From the IMG/VR virus record IMGVR_UViG_3300044641_003159, positions 1 through 30,004 of that record: DNA of 30,004 nucleotides; one strand, given 5' to 3'. Positions 3,800-30,004 of this stretch are shown here, one piece after another. A program made the translations under genes and the position numbers. Position 1 is the stretch's first letter. Each line of letters begins with the position of its first letter. Source of the DNA: a virus. The notes beneath the pieces were generated by a model. That model was not told where the DNA came from and did no database searches. It was given only the letters and a program-made list of their open reading frames with translations.

Positions 3800-4038
3800 T
3801 TGTACTTACGAATTAACTCAAAAGTTTTTTTTATGTCTTGCCAATTTAAATGTGGTTTATCATTTAGTTTTGAACCACTCCACGCAATGGTATATCCGTG
3901 ATTGGCATTAACAAAATCTTCGCGTTGAACTTTGTTACCATTAACAGCATCAAGATATATCCACGGGTAATTACCCACAAGCGAAATTTCAATTCCTATT
4001 TTTTTCAATCGATTAATGAACACTTCGATTTCGTTCAT
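3796..4038 (-). CDS. Small hypothetical phage protein (NYPWIYLDAVNG)
   Basis: 80 residues, ATG at 4036-4038 overlapping the small terminase stop. It contains IGIEISLVGNYPWIYLDAVN, then NHGYTIAWSG and an amphipathic C-terminal helix (DIKKTFELIRKYK). This pattern recurs in small Bacteroidetes-phage proteins of unknown function. It has no catalytic motif and no membrane segment. Translational coupling with terS suggests joint expression with packaging genes. Confidence 0.68.
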   Translation of the reverse strand: MNEIEVFINRLKKIGIEISLVGNYPWIYLDAVNGNKVQREDFVNANHGYTIAWSGSKLNDKPHLNWQDIKKTFELIRKYK

Positions 4039-4445
4039 AGCTTATCGTTGATTACAATTTGCACTGGTGCATCTGATACACCTGCTAATTCAGTTCGTTC
4101 AACATAACCCCTTTTCTTTCCCCTTGTCTTTAAATAAAAAATTGTTGCACTTGTATTTGGTGCATCTTGAACACGTATAACTTCACCGTCTGGTGTTGAA
4201 ACTTCGCGATGCGCTCCTTTTATCAATTCGAATAATTGACTTTCAGCAAAATCAAGTGCAAGGTCATTTAAAGATTCAACCTTTGCTTTATAATCTTCAT
4301 CGTTATTCATCCACAAATAATGCGTTGTTCTATCTATTCCAACTATCTGACACGCTGATGTTACTACACCCATCGTCTTTTCTAACGCTTGTAGCATAGC
4401 ATTCTTTTTTAATGTAGATTTTTGTTGTTTTATTTCTTCGCTCAT
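4035..4445 (-). CDS. Terminase small subunit-like DNA-binding protein
   Basis: 136 residues. A helix-turn-helix is visible at about residues 24-46 (MGVVTSACQIVGIDRTTHYL), followed by W-NNDEDYKAKVE, an acidic oligomerisation-type helix (SLNDLALDFAESQLFELIKG) and ATIFYLKTRGKKRGYVERTE. This is the arrangement of HTH-type small terminases, which recognise the packaging site and feed DNA to the large subunit. The large subunit here (12077-13384) is on the opposite strand in the early operon, so the two are not co-transcribed. The start overlaps the stop of the GIY-YIG gene by four bases. An alternative is a generic HTH regulator, less likely given the C-terminal pattern. Confidence 0.7.
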   Translation of the reverse strand: MSEEIKQQKSTLKKNAMLQALEKTMGVVTSACQIVGIDRTTHYLWMNNDEDYKAKVESLNDLALDFAESQLFELIKGAHREVSTPDGEVIRVQDAPNTSATIFYLKTRGKKRGYVERTELAGVSDAPVQIVINDKL

Positions 4446-5041
4446 AGTGGTATAGTTAACTGACGTTTTCTTTTCTCAATAAATAAATTGTTTTTAAAGA
4501 AATCATAGCGCATTAAATTTTTTATGTATTTGTTTGCTTCTTTATTCAAACTATTGTCATTATACCAATTACTTAATGTAGTAAGTAATCTTGGTACTTC
4601 ATTCGCTAATGCTTGAACAATTGTTATGTGTTTTGTATGACTTACAAATTTGTTGTTTTTAATTTTGATTGTGTAATAATAATATGGATCAAATGGTTTA
4701 GAATGTTTTTTTAATTCCTTCTTATTAATAACAATCATTTGCTTTCTTTTTTCTTTGCAGATATTTATACCACCACCACCTAATGCTATGTTTAAAACAT
4801 TTGGTTGCATAACAAAATCTTTATTTACAATATCTCTTTCTTTATCTAATGCTTCTTGACGTGTTTTGTGAAATGATATAATTTCTTTTTCAAAAAAATC
4901 TTTACCCAGTTCAGACATTAACTTTTTTAAATTAACACCAGAACCCATATAACCATCATTTAAATCTGATGTGCTATGAATGCCGATATAAATATTATCG
5001 GAATTTTTTTGTTTGATTTTATAGATGTAGTGATGCATCAT
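4442..5041 (-). CDS. GIY-YIG endonuclease (free-standing homing type)
   Basis: 199 residues from ATG at 5039-5041 (a second ATG follows directly). The GIY-YIG core is clear: YIYKI at residues 5-9, YIGIHS at 18-23, GYMGSG at 30-35, a catalytic-type R61 followed by EAL and E68, and NIALGGGG at 84-91. The C-terminal 100 residues are Lys/Asn-rich and may bind DNA. Such T4 Seg-like enzymes cut a specific site and spread by homing. It sits between an unknown gene and terS with a four-base overlap. Its codons are markedly A/T-rich (many ATA, AAA, TTA) compared with its neighbours, which suggests recent arrival. Confidence 0.82.
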   Translation of the reverse strand: MMHHYIYKIKQKNSDNIYIGIHSTSDLNDGYMGSGVNLKKLMSELGKDFFEKEIISFHKTRQEALDKERDIVNKDFVMQPNVLNIALGGGGINICKEKRKQMIVINKKELKKHSKPFDPYYYYTIKIKNNKFVSHTKHITIVQALANEVPRLLTTLSNWYNDNSLNKEANKYIKNLMRYDFFKNNLFIEKRKRQLTIPL

Positions 5042-5415: not shown

Positions 5416-5821
5416 TTGTTGTGAATTTTTTAAGATGAATATAGTTATTGATATGTATATATATTAATCATATTCAAAAGAAAAGAAAGAAAAAGAAAAA
5501 AGTTTAAAAAAGAAAAAGAAAGAAAAGAAAAAGACCCCCAAGAAAAACAAACGTTCACGCTTCAAAAGAAGCATTTACACGATCCAAGCATTGGTATATT
5601 GCAAGTGTTGACGTTTGATACTGCGCTATGTCCTACGCAGGTTAAATGATTAATGCTATGCATCAAATAAGAGTAAAAGAAAAGCGCAAATGGAGTAATG
5701 CAACAAACCACCAAATGCGCTTCCTTTTGATTTTGGAAATCCTAAACTAACTAAATATGATATGACAATTTGCATTACCACAAATATACGTTGATGTACC
5801 AATTAGTTGCTAGAATAATTA
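5416..5821. other. Non-coding region with hairpins and a polypurine tract
   Basis: No convincing reading frame is present on either strand; stops are frequent. Visible elements: a purine-only style tract of A and G at about 5476-5533 (pyrimidine run on the leftward transcript); a hairpin GCTTC-AAAA-GAAGC at 5559-5572; CTGCG/CGCAG at 5621-5640 with a 10-base loop; AAGCGCA/TGCGCTT at 5682-5722; and a 9-base inverted pair GTAATGCAA/TTGCATTAC at 5695-5703 and 5770-5778. A -7-type promoter element on the minus strand at 5781-5788 would make all of this a structured leader of about 360 nt for the gene at 5062-5415, or a separate RNA. Confidence 0.55.
5781..5788 (-). promoter_or_regulatory. Putative leftward Bacteroidota-type -7 element
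   Basis: On the minus strand this reads TATATTTG, an exact match to the Bacteroidota -7 consensus TAnnTTTG and identical to the rightward promoter element at 7188-7195. No clear TTTG lies 19-21 bp upstream, so this is a partial match. It would start a transcript near 5774 through the hairpin-rich leader. Confidence 0.38.
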
Positions 5822-6244
5822 TCAAGAACTTTTCAAAGATTCACGCATTGTTTTTATCTCGCGTTTAATACACGCACTACAAGTTGAACGTTCATTGTAT
5901 GCTTGTGTAATTTGGTCTTTGTAAGCATAGAACTTGTTACGTTGTGCATCGTCAATCTTACCAGTTGCTTCGATTACATCAAGCAATTCAATTAACGCAA
6001 TTTTTTCTTCATCAGTTAAGAGACCTTTCCATTTACCTGCTGGACAAGTTGCAAGTGAAAGTTTTGCTTTGATGGGCATTACACAACCACACAAGTGAAT
6101 TGATTTCTTTCGATAAAGAACTTCAATTTGTTCTTCACCACCTACGATTAACGATCCACACGATTGTGTTGTTGCTTCAAAAAATTTACAATTGCGACAG
6201 ATTTCTAACCTGCGATTGTATTCAGAACTTCTAACGAATAACAT
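5822..6244 (-). CDS. Cys-rich, probably zinc-binding protein
   Basis: 140 residues. Cysteines sit as C16-x2-C19, C29, C52-x-C54 and C67, with a further C122-x2-C125 near the end, giving a likely zinc ribbon in the first half (CRNCKFF, LCGCVMPIK, CPAGKW) and an acidic helical second half. The start ATG (6242-6244) lies inside the 3' end of the sigma-like gene (14-base overlap), so the two are probably co-translated. I know similar small Cys-rich proteins from Bacteroidetes phages without an assigned function. A role in transcription together with the sigma-like neighbour is inference only. Confidence 0.7.
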   Translation of the reverse strand: MLFVRSSEYNRRLEICRNCKFFEATTQSCGSLIVGGEEQIEVLYRKKSIHLCGCVMPIKAKLSLATCPAGKWKGLLTDEEKIALIELLDVIEATGKIDDAQRNKFYAYKDQITQAYNERSTCSACIKREIKTMRESLKSS

Positions 6245-6725
6245 TGTTTCTTAATTTTTGTTTTACTTTATCTATTGTGCGATACAAGTACACTTGTGGT
6301 ATACCAGTTTGCTTACTGAATTCTTTGTAACTGAAATCTTCAAGAATGTATTCTTCAAAAATCAAACGCTCGAATTCACTTAATCTGCTAATCAAAATAT
6401 CTAATTGTTCATTCGCTAAACGTGAACCTAACCACGTTTTATCTTCTTCGTAATTCTTGTCAACGAAATCACGCTTGTTAAGTTTGTATTGAATGTATTG
6501 TTTATTGAATGGTGATGATGGCGAATTAACTGATAAGTACATTACGCGAATTAGATAGAATTCAAATTCATCGTTCTGCAATAAATTGTCGATGTGTTTA
6601 CTTGTGATTGCGCTGATAATTGATTCGTGCAACAAATCTTCATACCATTCTTGATTGCGCGCAATGTTACGAGCCAACTTTTTGAGATGGTCATAATTCT
6701 TGCTTATGTATGCATCAAGTGTCAA
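6231..6725 (-). CDS. Sigma-70-family-like protein (ECF type)
   Basis: 164 residues starting at a TTG codon (6723-6725) that overlaps the nuclease gene by 11 bases. Residues 1-45 look like sigma region 2 (ARNIARNQEWYEDLLHESII), and residues 115-164 like region 4: LSEFERLIFEEYILEDFSYK, then EFSKQTGIPQVYLYRTIDKV with the helix-turn-helix. This is the two-domain layout of short ECF-type sigma factors, which direct RNA polymerase to special promoters. In this genome it would be a natural candidate to switch on leftward virion genes. It could also be a non-canonical sigma-like DNA-binding protein; region 2 is divergent. Confidence 0.7.
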   Translation of the reverse strand: MTLDAYISKNYDHLKKLARNIARNQEWYEDLLHESIISAITSKHIDNLLQNDEFEFYLIRVMYLSVNSPSSPFNKQYIQYKLNKRDFVDKNYEEDKTWLGSRLANEQLDILISRLSEFERLIFEEYILEDFSYKEFSKQTGIPQVYLYRTIDKVKQKLRNNVIR

Positions 6726-7119
6726 GGTACTTCTTTATTATTTCAATTGCTTCGTCACTGCCTTTACAAATATAACTTTCGTACTTTCTGTTTCTTAATT
6801 CGTCACGCCACCACTTCTGTTCACTTGATACACTACCACCTTTTTCTTTCTTCATTTCGATTGCAAGACCGTGAAATGATCCACGTGGTTCGTATATAAA
6901 CAAATCGGGGAATCCTTTTACATAACCAGTACGTTTCATTTTTACTGCTTGTAAATAACTTGTACGCATACCACCCGCAGATGCGCAGTACAATGCGTTT
7001 GGATACGCAGAACGAATGAATTGCACAACCAATTGTTGCTGATATGCTTCGCTATTCACGTTCAAAACACCTTTCTTGTATGTTTTTTTAGGTTTTCTAT
7101 GTAAAGTTTTTACGTTCAT
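6715..7119 (-). CDS. VRR-NUC domain nuclease
   Basis: 134 residues from the ATG at 7117-7119 (a TTG two codons upstream is also in frame). The VRR-NUC core of the PD-(D/E)XK superfamily is seen: E24 in the first helix, GFPDLFIYEP at residues 69-78 with D72, LAIEMKKEKG at 85-94 with E88 and K90, then Q101-KWW. In phages these small enzymes cut branched DNA or act as Holliday-junction resolvases before packaging. It is the first gene of the leftward block, back to back with the rightward early operon, and overlaps the sigma-like gene. The basic N-terminus (HRKPKKTYKKG) suits DNA binding. Confidence 0.85.
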   Translation of the reverse strand: MNVKTLHRKPKKTYKKGVLNVNSEAYQQQLVVQFIRSAYPNALYCASAGGMRTSYLQAVKMKRTGYVKGFPDLFIYEPRGSFHGLAIEMKKEKGGSVSSEQKWWRDELRNRKYESYICKGSDEAIEIIKKYLDT

Positions 7120-7164
7120 TTTCAATCAGTTAGCTATTAGTCATAAAAAAAAGTGAAAAAAAAG

Positions 7165-9068: not shown

Positions 9069-9146
9069 GATATGGATTATGAATTAGAGCGTTGGGAAGA
9101 ACGCAACGAAAAAAAACAACAAAGTAAACAATTAAAATCAAATACA

Positions 9147-9599
9147 ATGAGTAACAAAAAAAGTGTGGTTAAACACGTTCAAAGTGCAGGTACTTGGAAC
9201 GGAATGTTCAAATTCGATATCGATTTTGAAAACGGTGATACAGGTACTTGTTTCTGCAAGGAAGAATCAAGTGTACAAAAGAATTTCCCTATCGGCAAAG
9301 AAGTTGAATATGAATTCACTCCAATGGGCAAAGGTCACAAGGTAAAAGCAGTATATAATCCTGCATCAACTGGTGGTAATGGTAATGGTAGTTTTAAATC
9401 ATTCTCTAAATCACCAGAAGAACAATCACGCATTGCACGTATGAACGCATTAACGAACGCAGTTAATTGGGCTGTATCAAAAGATTCTGCAACCGAACTT
9501 GACGTGCTAACAATTGCATCCGCATTCGAGAATTTCATTATGAGCGGATTGAACACATCAACAACATCAACAAATAACACGGAAGACATTCCATTCTAA
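9147..9599 (+). CDS. SSB-like protein with DIPF tail
   Basis: 150 residues from MSNKKSVVKHVQ; this start has the usual A-rich leader (TTAAAATCAAATACA). An ATG at 9072 in the same frame would add 25 charged residues. Residues 1-70 look like a small OB-type beta barrel (GTWNGMFKFDIDFENGDTG, then IGKEVEYEFTP and GKGHKVKAVYN). A Gly/Asn/Ser linker follows, then a helical region and an acidic C-terminus ending DIPF. That tip is the same as the bacterial SSB tail that binds partner proteins at the replication fork. Single-stranded DNA binding is inferred from fold pattern and tail, not from a full SSB signature. Confidence 0.6.
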   Translation: MSNKKSVVKHVQSAGTWNGMFKFDIDFENGDTGTCFCKEESSVQKNFPIGKEVEYEFTPMGKGHKVKAVYNPASTGGNGNGSFKSFSKSPEEQSRIARMNALTNAVNWAVSKDSATELDVLTIASAFENFIMSGLNTSTTSTNNTEDIPF

Positions 9600-9612
9600 A
9601 AAACAAAACAAA

Positions 9613-9906
9613 ATGAAAAAGCTAATTAACTTAACTCAAGAAGTAAAATCATTACTTGAAAAACGCCCTGCATTACGTGAATCAAATCGTAAATTATGCA
9701 TCGCCATTTGGAAAAAAGAAATGCGTGTGAAAAAACTTTCGGATAATTTTGAATTCGAATATGGTCGCGGTGCATTGTCTTGTGGTGATAACATCGTTCG
9801 CGTTGCGAGATTACTCAAAGCAGAAAACGAACAACTGCGCGGAATGAATCACGTAACAAATCAAAAGAAAGCAGTAATAGGTAAAAAAATCTTAAAGAAA
9901 AAATGA
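9613..9906 (+). CDS. Conserved hypothetical phage protein
   Basis: 97 residues, ATG after an AAAACAAAACAAA leader. The pattern LTQEVKSLLEKRPALRESNR, IAIWKKEM, then RGALSCGDNIVRVARLL and ENEQLRG recurs in Bacteroidetes phages beside replication genes. Helical, strongly basic, probably DNA-associated, function unknown. Its stop overlaps the start of the HTH gene. Confidence 0.7.
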   Translation: MKKLINLTQEVKSLLEKRPALRESNRKLCIAIWKKEMRVKKLSDNFEFEYGRGALSCGDNIVRVARLLKAENEQLRGMNHVTNQKKAVIGKKILKKK

Positions 9907-10145
9907 TAGTTGAACGTTATAACACACCATTCGCAAGATTCGTGAAGAAGAATTTTGGTACGATTAACAAGTTCAAAAAAGTTTTAAGTGTAAGCGAACC
10001 AACCGTTCGCTTATACTTGAAACACCCAACAAGAATGCGCATCGAAGATTTCAATCGCATCTGTAATTTTTTGGAAATGAAGCGTGAAGACGTTTGGAAA
10101 TCAATGACAATAGACATAACAATTAAACACGAAGGAAATGAATGA
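9903..10145 (+). CDS. Small helix-turn-helix DNA-binding protein
   Basis: 80 residues. A Cro/CI-like HTH is visible at about residues 19-50: FGTINKFKKVLSVSEPTVRL, then YLKHPTRMRIEDFNRICNFL. It overlaps both neighbours by four to eight bases. Such proteins regulate early genes, but there is no divergent repressor pair or integrase here, so a lysogeny switch is not supported. It precedes the DnaA-like gene and may act at the origin or as an early repressor. Confidence 0.65.
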   Translation: MIVERYNTPFARFVKKNFGTINKFKKVLSVSEPTVRLYLKHPTRMRIEDFNRICNFLEMKREDVWKSMTIDITIKHEGNE

Positions 10146-10668
10146 TACAAGGGCAATACGAGCAATTAAAAACGAAATCATTGATATGATTCCACCAACG
10201 CATTACAAACGTTTCAATCAATTGTGGGAACTGGTTGTGCCTAACGTAGTAACACCATCACCAGAACAAATTGAATTACAACGTGAAATTGCAAATGAAC
10301 GTGACAGATTTTGGTTGTGCGTGGAAGACAAAGTGTGTTCGCAGATGGGCATCAACTCTGTTGAATTGTACAACAAAACACGCATTCGTGAAGTCGCACA
10401 ATCACGTCAAATCATTTGGTGGATTATGTATAACACTTGTCGCATCAGTTTACAAGCGATTGCGAATCGTTACTACAAAGACCACGCAACGTGTTTGCAC
10501 GGAATAAGACAAGTGAGTGCGATTATGCAATTCGATAAAACTTTTCGCGCTGATGTTGAATGCATATGCGATGCAATTGCAAATGCAGGTTTCACACAAG
10601 CGCAAGAATTTTACCGTACTTTTACAAAAGAAATCGAAAGACAAAACACTAAAAAACAAAAACAATGA
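10138..10668 (+). CDS. DnaA domain IV-like replication initiation protein
   Basis: 176 residues. Residues 82-125 match the C-terminal DNA-binding domain of DnaA: RIREVAQSRQIIWWIMYNTC, then ISLQAIANRYYKDHATCLHG, with the signature YKDHATCLHG in place of the bacterial RDHTTVxHA. The AAA+ ATPase part of DnaA is missing, so it should bind DNA like DnaA without its own ATP switch. It probably marks the phage origin or displaces host DnaA. It lies in the middle of the replication module, overlapping the HTH gene upstream (8 bases) and the next gene (ATGA). Confidence 0.75.
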   Translation: MNDTRAIRAIKNEIIDMIPPTHYKRFNQLWELVVPNVVTPSPEQIELQREIANERDRFWLCVEDKVCSQMGINSVELYNKTRIREVAQSRQIIWWIMYNTCRISLQAIANRYYKDHATCLHGIRQVSAIMQFDKTFRADVECICDAIANAGFTQAQEFYRTFTKEIERQNTKKQKQ

Positions 10669-11060
10669 ATGGTTATTTTTTAATGAAAAAAATTGATGCG
10701 TTGGAACTGCGCATCAAAGAACAACAAGAACAAATTGATGCTATTGAAAAACGTTTAAAACAACGTGAGCCATCAAAACGATTTCAACCACCAACACAAT
10801 CTGAAGTTGTACTTTACATTTGCAATGATTTACAAAAGTTGTGTGGATCGGATGCTGAAGTATTCGCAGAAAAATTTGTAGCACATTACGAAGCGAATGG
10901 TTGGAAGGTTGGAAGGAATGCGATGAAAGATTGGAAAGCATCAGTAAGAAAATGGAACATAGAACAATTCAATAAACAAACAAATGCAACAATTACAAAT
11001 GGAAAATTCAATTCAACGAATGCCGAACGCATCTACCGTGATGCACAGAACATCGGATAG
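10665..11060 (+). CDS. Probable replication accessory protein
   Basis: 131 residues. A coiled-coil N-terminus (residues 8-35, KEQQEQIDAIEKRLKQRE) is followed by PPTQSEVVLYICND, then FVAHYEANGWKVGRNAMKDW, KASVRKW. The PT-x-EEV and NGW-VG-MKDWKA-VR-W pattern is known to me from phage replication proteins and primosome-like accessory proteins. An alternative start at 10683 removes six residues. The function is inferred from neighbours (DnaA-like upstream). The last 77 bases overlap the next gene. Confidence 0.6.
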   Translation: MNGYFLMKKIDALELRIKEQQEQIDAIEKRLKQREPSKRFQPPTQSEVVLYICNDLQKLCGSDAEVFAEKFVAHYEANGWKVGRNAMKDWKASVRKWNIEQFNKQTNATITNGKFNSTNAERIYRDAQNIG

Positions 11061-11733
11061 AATCACAATTGCAGAACGTCAAAGTGAATTCATCAGCAAA
11101 CACGATTTACCGACATTCGTAAAACTATGCGCAAAGTTGTGTGCTATGTATGGTTTACAATTACCCGAAGCACAACTATTACAATTGCTAAAAGATTTCA
11201 TCGATAAACATTACGCGTGGTGTACATTCGAACATTGGAATATCGCGTTCGAATTAAATGCATCTAACCAGTTAGAAAAAAAAGTAGAACCATTTGGTGC
11301 GTTGACCGTTACATTTTTAGGTGATGTATTGACGTTATACAAACCATTGCGAGACAAAGCAAATTTGGAATGGCAACGTGAAGTGAACGAATCAAAGAAA
11401 CAACTTGCACCAGTTGTGAATGAAGAAGATTGGTTGAATTCATTGCGTGAAGACATCGATGCATACAAGAAAAAGAAGTTCACGGTAATTGATATGCGTG
11501 GTTCTATTATGCTCGAATGGTTAGAGACAAGCGGAAGAATTGCACACGATTATTTTAGCGATGAAGAATATCGCAAAGCTAAATTTGAAGCAAAGCGAAT
11601 TGTATTTTCTGATTTGCAAATGTCACAAGCTAAATATGACCGAATGGTTGAAGGCAAAAAAGAAAAGGTGCGTGATTACATACGCATTCAAGGTCTGCGC
11701 GAATTGTATAAAATATATTTGAGTAAGCAATGA
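10984..11733 (+). CDS. Probable replication-module protein, function unknown
   Basis: 249 residues if started at ATG 10984, which has the A-rich leader CAATAAACAAACAA. Later in-frame ATG codons at 10999, 11020 and 11041 would reduce the 77-base overlap with the previous gene. All-helical, charged: EWLETSGRIAHDYFSDEEY near residue 178 on, and a long basic C-terminal helix. Size, helical make-up and position after a DnaA-like gene resemble helicase-loader-type proteins of small phages, but no Walker motif is seen, so that is only a guess. Confidence 0.6.
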   Translation: MQQLQMENSIQRMPNASTVMHRTSDRITIAERQSEFISKHDLPTFVKLCAKLCAMYGLQLPEAQLLQLLKDFIDKHYAWCTFEHWNIAFELNASNQLEKKVEPFGALTVTFLGDVLTLYKPLRDKANLEWQREVNESKKQLAPVVNEEDWLNSLREDIDAYKKKKFTVIDMRGSIMLEWLETSGRIAHDYFSDEEYRKAKFEAKRIVFSDLQMSQAKYDRMVEGKKEKVRDYIRIQGLRELYKIYLSKQ

Positions 11734-12077
11734 AGCAGTTTTATTATAACGAACATAATGTGTGCGATAATCCAAACACTATGACATATAAATGTTTAAA
11801 AAAATATACTGCAACAATTAATACTGCAATTGTTGATAATGGCAAATGGTCTTATTCAATTAGTTTTGTTGGTTGTAATCAAGGTTGGTCACAACCATTA
11901 ATTGGTCACGCACAACACAATGTTTTTGAAACAGAACAACAAGCGTTTGATGCAGGTTTAAAACTTCTTGTGGATCAAATAAATGCGAATAACGATTTAA
12001 AAAAATACGATGCTATTTTAGAAATGTTGCGTTCTGATTTGTTTGATAAAAGTAATTTACAATTAAGTTTATTTTAA
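11730..12077 (+). CDS. Small protein with C-terminal beta-clamp-binding motif
   Basis: 115 residues, start overlapping the upstream stop (ATGA). It ends SNLQLSLF: QLSLF is the canonical pentapeptide (QL[SD]LF) by which bacterial polymerases and repair proteins bind the beta sliding clamp. The rest is a small alpha/beta domain (KWSYSISFVGCNQGWSQPL) and a helical stretch before the tail. It lies between the replication genes and the large terminase, whose ATG overlaps its stop by one base. It could recruit or block the host clamp; function beyond the motif is inference. Confidence 0.68.
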   Translation: MKQFYYNEHNVCDNPNTMTYKCLKKYTATINTAIVDNGKWSYSISFVGCNQGWSQPLIGHAQHNVFETEQQAFDAGLKLLVDQINANNDLKKYDAILEMLRSDLFDKSNLQLSLF

Positions 12078-13384
12078 TGAATCAGTACAAACCACAATAT
12101 TTACAACGCCAAGTCGAAGCATTGATGCATCTTGCAACGGATTCACCAGTTGAACAAGTGTTGTATGGTGGTGGTGCAGGTGGTGGTAAAACAAGGTTTG
12201 GTTGTATGTGGCAAATACAAAGACGATTGAAGTATGCCGGTACACGTTCACTTATTGGTCGAAGCAAATTAGATACGCTAAAAAAAACAACGCTCAACAC
12301 ATTCTTTGAAACGTGTGCAGATTTTGGTTTACTTGCAGATAAGCATTACAATTACAATGGTCAAACGAATGTGATTACATTTTTTAATGGAAGTGAAATT
12401 GTATTAAAAGATTTGTTTGCATACCCATCAAATCCAAATTTCGATTCATTAGGGTCGCTTGAAATTACAGATTACTTTATTGATGAAGTTGCAGAGGTAA
12501 CTGAAAAGGCAGTTAACATTGTTCATTCAAGATGTAGATACAAGTTGAATGAATTTAATTTAATACCTAAAGGTTTCTTGTCTTGCAATCCATCGAAAGG
12601 TTGGTTGTATAATGAATTTTATTTGAAGTATCGCAACAACGAATTACCAGTTCACCGTGCATTTGTTCAAGCATTGCCAACTGATAACCCACACTTACCA
12701 CAAGCATACATTGAATCTTTAAGACGATTGCCCGAATACGATAGAAAGCGTTTGCTTGAAGGCAATTGGGAATTTGATGATGATTCAGATAAGTTATTTG
12801 CAACCGATAATTTGTTACGAATGTTCCGCAATGAATTGTTAGATGGAACTAAATACATAACATCAGACATTGCGCGATTTGGTAAAGACCGAACCATCAT
12901 TTGCGTGTGGAATGGATTAACACTTATTGAATTAAAAATGCTACATAAAGCAAGTATTGATGAAGTAGTGAATGAAATTCGCAACACAGCAAAAAATCAC
13001 AACGTGTTATTGCAAAATGTAGTGTGCGATGAAGATGGTGTTGGTGGTGGTGTTGTGGATTATTTGAAATGCAGAGGTTTTGTCAATGGATCAAAAGCAA
13101 AGCAGCCACAATATCAAAATCTAAAATCAGAATGTTATTATACACTCGCGCAGTACATCGAAGAAAACAAGTTGACGATTTTAGTTAATGACAAAAAAGA
13201 ACAAATTGTGCGCGAACTGGAAATGATTAAACGCCATCGTGCAGATGTCGATGGAAAACTTCAAGTAACACCAAAAGACCAAATCAAATTACGCGAAGGA
13301 ATTTCACCCGATATAGCTGATGCGATTATGATGCGAATGTTCTTCGAACTCAATCCATCTTATGGACAATATGTTGTCGGTTAA
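12077..13384 (+). CDS. terL: Terminase large subunit
   Basis: 435 residues, the motor that packages DNA into the prohead. ATPase domain: Walker A GGGAGGGKT at residues 31-39, Walker B YFIDE at 133-137 (D136, E137), coupling motif SCNP at 169-172. RNase H-fold nuclease domain: D264 in TSDIARFG, CDEDG at 317-321, and SPDIADAI at 410-417 with D415. All key residues are present. Unlike the usual terS-terL-portal order, it stands on the rightward early strand while terS (4035-4445) and portal (18277-20232) are on the opposite strand. It follows the clamp-motif protein with a one-base overlap (TAATG). Confidence 0.95.
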   Translation: MNQYKPQYLQRQVEALMHLATDSPVEQVLYGGGAGGGKTRFGCMWQIQRRLKYAGTRSLIGRSKLDTLKKTTLNTFFETCADFGLLADKHYNYNGQTNVITFFNGSEIVLKDLFAYPSNPNFDSLGSLEITDYFIDEVAEVTEKAVNIVHSRCRYKLNEFNLIPKGFLSCNPSKGWLYNEFYLKYRNNELPVHRAFVQALPTDNPHLPQAYIESLRRLPEYDRKRLLEGNWEFDDDSDKLFATDNLLRMFRNELLDGTKYITSDIARFGKDRTIICVWNGLTLIELKMLHKASIDEVVNEIRNTAKNHNVLLQNVVCDEDGVGGGVVDYLKCRGFVNGSKAKQPQYQNLKSECYYTLAQYIEENKLTILVNDKKEQIVRELEMIKRHRADVDGKLQVTPKDQIKLREGISPDIADAIMMRMFFELNPSYGQYVVG

Positions 13385-28963: not shown

Positions 28964-30004
28964 AGACCTACTCCTTGACTATATTTTAAATTCAATGTGA
29001 CGTTAAACAACTTGCTATACTTTTCGTTCTTAATTGTAAATTGCGAATCAGCAATTAATACTGGTGTTTGCGAACCATCATCACTAACAATGAACACATC
29101 ATTCGAGCGTAACAAAGTTTGCAAGAATTCAAATTCGCCAACGCTCAACCAGTCACTATTAATCACAAGACCTTTCGTTGTGTTTACGTACCTATCTGTT
29201 ACACCTCTATCGTATGTGTTGAATCCAAACGTTGTAGAATTGTAATCACCAATTACTTTTTGATATTGTTTGCGCTCATAATTATATGTTAGTTCACTTC
29301 GCTTTGTGAAGTTGAAATAATCAACACCACCGCACGTATTTGTCCACATCAAACGCACGTTATCGAATAAGCAATCATCATCAATTTTGTAAAACACATA
29401 ACGTCTTGAAACCCTTGTGCCACCTATGTTACGCGCATACACATCATACCACTTCCAATTCGTCATTGTTGCCCCATCAGATAACAAGTTCATTGGGTAT
29501 GCACCGAATGCATTAACTGCTAATGGATCACCACTTAACGCATATATGATTGTATCGATTAGTGTGTTGGATTGGTTGAAAATGTTAATCGCAATTTCAA
29601 CTGCTTCTGTGTCTGGTAACTGCGTTGATATTTGACCAACGGAATACATAACACCATAATCAGATAATCGTGCAGGTATGTAAACTTCATCAGTTGTTAA
29701 ACCACCAACACTTGTGTAATCACTCCATACGTGCGTTGTGTTCAATCGTTCTGATAACAAATACTTGTCTGTTGTATTGAGCGCATAACGTGTGTTTGTA
29801 TCGGGTAAAAATCCATCACTCACTTGATATTCTGCGAGGAAAAAATAACCGCGTCTCGATAATGCTTGACCAACGGTTGTTGGTGTGAACACTCCATTAA
29901 TTAACCAACCTTCTTTAATAGTTGCACGTGCGTAAACAACTGAACTTGTTTCATCTTGAATGTTTGCAAAATTTGCAAGTGTTGAATGGTACAACTTTTC
30001 ACGT
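28960..30004 (-). CDS. Tail/baseplate-type structural protein, C-terminal part (begins at 283)
   Basis: The frame is open to the right edge. The last 98 bases equal 1-98, so the true start is the ATG at 281-283 and the full protein has about 409 residues. The C-terminal half has RVSRRYVFYKIDDDCLFDNV, MWTNTCGGVDYFNFTKRSEL and an end domain with FEFLQTLLRSNDVFIVSDDG. Trp- and Tyr-rich, beta-dominated, no membrane helix. The CGG-DYFNF pattern recurs in tail proteins of Bacteroidetes phages. It precedes the 966-residue tail gene with a four-base overlap, so the two are likely to be partners in the distal tail. Confidence 0.8.
   Translation of the reverse strand, partial: REKLYHSTLANFANIQDETSSVVYARATIKEGWLINGVFTPTTVGQALSRRGYFFLAEYQVSDGFLPDTNTRYALNTTDKYLLSERLNTTHVWSDYTSVGGLTTDEVYIPARLSDYGVMYSVGQISTQLPDTEAVEIAINIFNQSNTLIDTIIYALSGDPLAVNAFGAYPMNLLSDGATMTNWKWYDVYARNIGGTRVSRRYVFYKIDDDCLFDNVRLMWTNTCGGVDYFNFTKRSELTYNYERKQYQKVIGDYNSTTFGFNTYDRGVTDRYVNTTKGLVINSDWLSVGEFEFLQTLLRSNDVFIVSDDGSQTPVLIADSQFTIKNEKYSKLFNVTLNLKYSQGVGL
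29907..30004. repeat. Terminal direct repeat, right copy (circle closure)
   Basis: Identical to 1-98, see there. One copy should be removed to obtain the unit genome; features ending or starting in it are single genes. Confidence 0.93.

Follow-up and report, generated by a model that had tools for sequence, protein, structure and literature searches.

A likely host-dependent replication cassette and an exchangeable gene for a protein with a clamp-binding-type tail in a putative Bacteroidota phage genome

How might a phage copy its DNA when no replication enzyme can be recognised in its genome, and what would such a phage do with a small protein that ends like a ligand of the bacterial sliding clamp? 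Both questions are raised by positions 9147 to 12077 of the virus record IMGVR_UViG_3300044641_003159 (IMG/VR), which we analysed over its whole length of 30,004 bases (the window). An original prediction had placed three neighbouring genes of this locus, encoding a single-stranded DNA-binding (SSB)-like protein, a protein with DnaA domain IV (DnaA-IV) and a protein ending in QLSLF, in one module for takeover of the host replisome. We instead observed a conserved cassette of five genes (SSB-like, small helix-turn-helix (HTH), DnaA-IV, p5 and p6), likely to be a host-dependent replication module, with the QLSLF gene outside this core. The reading in full, in which the cassette replicates with host enzymes and the QLSLF protein is a separate clamp-tethered accessory acting in DNA protection, is one that we regard as evenly balanced; it builds on protein families, conservation of the tail, predicted disorder of the tail and exchange of genes in the slot that the QLSLF gene occupies. 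The genes are as follows.

9147..9599, plus strand: SSB-like protein, 150 residues, tip TEDIPF; predicted OB-type N-domain, linker and two helices
9613..9906, plus strand: 97-residue protein, found only in the lineage of the window
9903..10145, plus strand: small HTH protein, 80 residues, weakly Cro/C1-like (HTH_26, E 0.0019, below the Pfam cut-off)
10138..10668, plus strand: DnaA-IV protein, 176 residues, domain IV at residues ~63-147 (Bac_DnaA_C, 3.1e-13)
10665..11060, plus strand: p5, 131 residues, coiled coil and DUF4373-type initiator C-terminal domain (tblastn, phrog_1408)
10984..11733, plus strand: p6, 249 residues, overlapping p5, in the position of a helicase loader by comparison with Porphyromonas phage 005b and Leeuwenhoekiella phage Arctus_1
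11730..12077, plus strand: QLSLF protein, 115 residues, with a C-terminal clamp-binding-type motif; gene in the exchange slot
12077..13384, plus strand: TerL (Terminase_3, 5.1e-9), flanking the slot and overlapping the QLSLF stop codon by one base

The three genes first singled out, with their motifs, do sit at these positions on the plus strand, and none of the motifs is a match by chance. They are neighbours but are not adjacent, with four genes intervening (9613-9906, 9903-10145, 10665-11060 and 10984-11733), two of which are probably replication genes.

Bases 1-98 of the record are repeated exactly at 29907-30004, and we therefore take the window to be a whole phage genome of ~29,906 bases. 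Among its genes are those for terminases, portal, protease, tape measure and tail. A Bacteroidota host is suggested by the 49% identity of its TerL to that of Flavobacterium phage 11b and by the comparison of DnaA types below. Models for DnaB_C, DNA_pol_A, DNA_pol_B, DNA_pol3_alpha, DNA_pol3_beta_2, DNAG_N and IstB/DnaC gave no match either here or in 13 related records (some of which may be fragments), and each gave matches in control genomes. Polymerase, primase, helicase and clamp were thus undetected, as the original prediction had stated, and so was a DnaC-type loader; the proposed reliance on host enzymes gained support.

Relatives were collected as 94 loci from scans of viral contigs, and iterated profile searches were run over the open reading frames (ORFs) of these loci. 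The recurrent order was SSB-like, small HTH, DnaA-IV, p5, p6, variable genes and TerL. Among the 91 loci with a DnaA-IV gene, some of them short, p6 was observed in 61, the small HTH gene in 58 and the SSB-like gene in 53. The idea of one module of three genes therefore holds for the SSB-like and DnaA-IV genes, which share a cassette, and does not hold for the optional QLSLF gene; it also missed p5 and p6, two further, probable replication genes of the cassette.

The tail of the 115-residue QLSLF protein matches the clamp-ligand motif, defined as Q-phi-x-[LM]-[FL] with QLxLF the form of highest affinity (2024 review, PMC11139829). All 34 of the homologous rows (19 distinct nucleotide sequences) ended in QL[STA]LF, with synonymous codon changes in the tail, and this over bodies that diverge to 22% identity and linkers before the tail that differ completely. 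An AlphaFold2 model showed residues 1-105 folded (predicted local distance difference test (pLDDT) mostly 80-95) and residues 108-115 with pLDDT below 50, placing the motif in a flexible segment beyond the folded body. The motif is accordingly kept at the C-terminus of homologues and predicted disordered rather than buried, two points on which the original prediction could have failed. The natural reading of a conserved, disordered tail of this kind is that it binds the clamp, which we consider likely. The body contained no recognised domain and no fold match in PDB or BFVD at E <= 0.001, and no convincing relatives of the protein were found in annotated phages or genome_contigs. A similarity of the body to Pur-alpha repeats (TMt ~0.45) was weak and was not relied on.

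Twenty-four of the 45 distinct phages having both p6 and TerL carried the QLSLF gene, and 21 did not; five of these 21 had a DNA methyltransferase (MTase) or an AAA-GNAT protein in its place. Within the lineage of the window, the slot between p6 and TerL contained a C5 MTase in L025/L026 and L028 and an AAA-GNAT protein with QNQISLF at its end in L029, and was empty in L013/L014, where TerL directly follows p6. In a second lineage (B) the slot lies between a 64-residue gene and a 116-residue gene, and contained a C5 MTase with the tail QLKLF in L049, an N6/N4 MTase with the tail QQKLF in L050, a GIY-YIG gene in L057 and no gene in L055. In the window, as in L002, L005, L007, L010 and L011, the QLSLF gene overlaps TerL by one base; in lineage B the 116-residue gene and a metallophosphoesterase gene separate the two. 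Because the gene is optional, and in relatives its slot is shared with MTases or AAA-GNAT, its product probably stands outside replisome recruitment. We also observed a long ORF nested within the C5 MTase gene, in a different reading frame, in L049 (8281-9027) and L025 (2484-3140); the two are similar and begin MKxxQKQISLF, and may possibly represent an overlapping gene with a clamp-type motif of its own.

Clamp-type tails were also observed on the modification enzymes more widely, in relatives fetched by family, so that the proportions given here measure specificity within the sample and not frequency among phages. Of these, 57 of 79 AAA-GNAT proteins ended in Q[LIVM]x[LM][FL] plus up to two further residues, 79 of 80 N6A MTases ended in Qxx[LMI][FL] plus up to three further residues (only 13 with an aliphatic second residue), and 30 of 79 C5 MTases had a tail. 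Shuffling the last 14 residues gave a mean tail count below 0.1 per family. Among the 4317 ORFs of all collected loci that fall outside these enzyme families, the stricter Q[LIMVQT]x[LMI]F as the extreme C-terminus was found in 4, two of which resemble nucleic-acid or nucleotide enzymes (L281, a possible cytosine MTase by eye only; L228, PAPS-reductase-like). MTases of isolate phages of Flavobacterium, Cellulophaga, Tenacibaculum and Nonlabens end in QQKLF, QTKLF, QTTLF and QQTLF; Bacteroides BF486P1 has QTSLFGV, and a Tetrasphaera phage has no tail. The Nonlabens phages P12024S and P12024L have an exchange site between the primase gene and a common 116-residue gene. In one phage an AAA-GNAT gene (QISLF) stands there, accompanied by two small genes; in the other the site holds a small gene, a TET/JBP-type oxygenase gene, gp27 (QLEIF) and an MTase gene (QQTLF). 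A family of ~146 residues, encoded just downstream of the AAA-GNAT gene (L105 4355-4795 and 11 relatives), includes some members ending QQLLF or QLKCF. No report of clamp-tailed phage DNA modifiers was found in literature searches limited to an open-access library.

Among the cassette proteins, that of the SSB-like gene was taken to start at the ATG at 9147, giving 150 residues to 9599; an in-frame ATG also lies upstream at 9072, but in the relative L014 the gene begins at the counterpart of 9147. The [DE]x?[ILMV]PF tip was present in 40 of 42 distinct relatives, across families ~25% identical, and the two exceptions are a contig truncated at GEAV and a fragment. AlphaFold2 placed strands at residues 4-17, 20-27 and 32-37, a helix at 40-46 and strands at 52-60 and 63-70 (pLDDT ~80), an order b1-b2-b3-a-b4-b5 that is the OB topology, in a model that was poor overall (predicted template modelling score 0.41). 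The linker and residues 134-148 were predicted disordered. Foldseek returned mostly OB proteins (Teb1, IF1, PrgE), all weak (E >= 7.5e-3, none <= 0.001), and sequence searches of Pfam, PHROGs and PDB gave no match. On this model the protein is SSB-like by architecture, not by homology, and the SSB-like tail proposed earlier proved to be real, conserved and predicted disordered.

The DnaA-IV protein matched Bac_DnaA_C (Pfam, E 3.1e-13), with YKDHATCLHG inside the match, and the profile of its family found DnaA structures only in the PDB (best 1j1v, 2e-17). No AAA match corresponding to the AAA+ ATPase domain III was present in its 176 residues, in agreement with the earlier description of a DnaA domain IV without ATPase. 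The HTH region retains DHAT as well as the RQ-motif arginine. L098 (H2) was rejected as a phage DnaA-IV protein, being a full bacterial DnaA, and serves as a host-type reference only; this Bacteroidota DnaA also carries KDHAT, which we therefore regard as the host-type form. In the isolate Leeuwenhoekiella phage Arctus_1, a DUF4373-like protein and an AAA+ DnaC-like protein are followed directly by a DnaA-IV protein, a gene order that supports an initiation role, and from its sequence the protein is probably an origin- or site-binding initiator. The search for DnaA-box clusters that had been proposed gave none: TTATCCACA with at most one mismatch occurred at 13 sites in the genome (11.1 expected), and TTWTNCACA at one, where dinucleotide shuffles predict 10.8 and a fourth-order model 5.2, so that such sites are at chance level or fewer.

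A different sequence, TGCAAGTGTT with its close variants, was observed at 22 sites (at most one mismatch; 5.6 expected), a count reached in 0 of 100 shuffles, with examples at positions 68, 5600, 15546, 16214, 18138, 20337, 23305 and 26099; most relatives were without this enrichment. In an otherwise unrelated phage, a 133-residue protein ending QLKLF is encoded directly upstream of a DnaA-IV gene (L073, 24-425).

In tblastn the product of p5 matched the C-terminal portion of Vibrio phage DUF4373 proteins and that of the Porphyromonas phage 005b replication initiation protein, and members of its family match phrog_1408, a replication initiation protein. It carries GWKVGxNxMKxWKAxxRxW (GWxVGKNxMKxWKAAxRxW in the C-terminal initiator domain) and is without the N-terminal domain of full-length initiators, its phrog_15768 match spanning profile positions 108-196 of 228. 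No informative family or structure match was found for p6, and no AAA+ or IstB match. A DnaC-like loader gene lies next to and overlaps the initiator gene in Porphyromonas phage 005b, as p6 overlaps p5, and from this position and that in Arctus_1 we infer that p6 may be a helicase loader. Two other assignments of p6 were rejected: a G39P-type inhibitor/loader, with no Pfam support, and a small terminase, which only 2 of 14 members matched (phrog_7344, 0.0055) and for which there is a better TerS candidate at 4035-4445. A search for iterons in the cassette gave only two-copy repeats.

In the mechanism that we propose, the phage would replicate with host enzymes. The SSB-like protein would coat single-stranded DNA and offer its SSB-type tip to host fork proteins, a domain IV borrowed from a DnaA-type initiator would mark a phage site, and p5 and p6, judging from domain content and position, may deliver the host helicase. 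The folded head of the QLSLF protein, on its flexible tail, would dock to the host sliding clamp and work on newly made phage DNA, its role being a replication-coupled protection of the DNA, by modification or anti-restriction. Protection is the most likely role because the gene alternates in its slot with MTases and AAA-GNAT genes, and many relatives of these are similarly tailed; as an assignment for this particular protein we hold it to be possible, somewhat short of an even chance. Several observations weigh against the proposal. The slot can also be empty or hold genes that are unrelated (GIY-YIG in L057, unknowns in L065), the C5 MTases in the slot of L025/L026 and L028 have no tail, QQKLF and QTKLF lack an aliphatic residue at the second position, where the canonical motif has one, and the enzyme counts come from a sample assembled by family. 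The QLSLF body, having neither domain nor fold match, allows no catalysis to be named, a loader role for p6 is read from its position, and no replication origin was found in the genome.

The original prediction, that the three proteins are a minimal set of adaptors directing host replication machinery to an origin on the phage DNA, QLSLF bringing in the clamp, draws on three motifs that are real and conserved, on a genome with no replication enzyme, and on the single overlapping operon of the window lineage. We consider it rather improbable, since the QLSLF gene is absent from 21 of the 45 distinct relatives that keep the rest and MTases occupy the same slot, p6 and the QLSLF gene are separated by several genes in lineage B, p5 and p6 are better candidates for recruiting, and no DnaA-box cluster was found. 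A narrower alternative is that the DnaA-IV protein is a transcription regulator and p5 and p6 alone start replication. Domain IV is an HTH, DnaA boxes are not clustered in the genome and the initiator domain is in p5, all of which speak for this; a DnaA-IV gene is nevertheless in every cassette found, beside genes of initiator and loader type, and is so in an unrelated isolate also, and we hold the regulator to be unlikely, if with some chance.

Two further alternatives concern the clamp. Staphylococcal phage proteins that bind DnaN are known (Twort gp168, G1 gp240; PMC3594737), and a small protein with a high-affinity-type motif could, on this precedent, block the clamp and shut off host replication. 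Such a block would harm a phage without its own clamp or polymerase, and the DNA-modifying enzymes that alternate in the slot cannot all have inhibitory tails, which makes this quite improbable. Coupling of replication through the clamp to another late event, such as packaging, is suggested by the single base that the gene shares with TerL, both in the window and in the five relatives listed above, yet two genes intervene in lineage B and TerL follows p6 directly, with no QLSLF gene, in L013/L014; we find it highly improbable. Returning to the clamp-tethered protection protein, a tentative generalisation would be that aquatic Bacteroidota phages using the host replisome tether DNA-protection proteins to the host clamp through a common, repeatedly acquired C-terminal tail and modify DNA as it is made, the QLSLF protein being a new, non-methylase head. 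In the usual view, phages modify DNA with free enzymes. That a conserved clamp-binding tail occurs in several DNA-modifying families that are unrelated, and in a small protein replacing them, predicts fork-coupled modification, which would explain how phage DNA is protected before restriction enzymes are met.

Other features were observed elsewhere in the window. A conserved non-coding element on the minus strand (5475-5720) was 84% identical over 167 nucleotides in the distant L006, whose cassette proteins are mostly 25-57% identical; with a fold z of -3.3, 7 pairs changed on both sides and no Rfam match, it is a candidate for a new phage structured RNA. Also on the minus strand, a sigma-70-like protein gene lies beside one for a VRR-NUC-like/resolvase-like nuclease (6231-6725 and 6715-7125), a pair also present in Nonlabens phages P12024S and P12024L, and a homing-endonuclease-like gene (4442-5041; phrog_314, 1.7e-27) directly adjoins the terminase small subunit gene (4035-4445).

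Compared with known systems, the SSB-like protein has in common with bacterial SSB an acidic C-terminal tip ending PF and, in its predicted model, a strand order of OB type, but it has no detected sequence similarity and contains an extra helical pair between the OB domain and the tail. The DnaA-IV protein has the H-A-T triad of DnaA (as in the Bacteroidota DnaA of L098) and the invariant RQ-motif arginine, and differs in the missing AAA+ domain and in an HTH turn that is one residue shorter in the phage family. Initiator-loader cassettes, whether of the lambda O/P type or with a DUF4373 initiator and a DnaC-like loader (Porphyromonas phage 005b, Leeuwenhoekiella phage Arctus_1), use host enzymes, as appears to be the case here. 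Common to them and the window are a gene in the loader position behind one with an initiator domain, a gene of SSB type nearby and no polymerase; unlike them, the window has the initiator C-terminal domain alone (p5), a DnaA-IV protein upstream and a presumed loader, p6, without AAA+. Clamp ligands with a terminal QLxLF (Pol II, Pol IV, UmuC, transposases) likewise have the motif on a disordered tail, whereas here it is on a small phage protein that is exchanged with DNA-modifying enzymes. The coupling of eukaryotic Dnmt1 to PCNA (PMC9690074) differs in that the clamp and motif here are of bacterial type, with no common ancestry implied; if our model is right, the two would be alike in holding a DNA modifier at the fork by a clamp motif.

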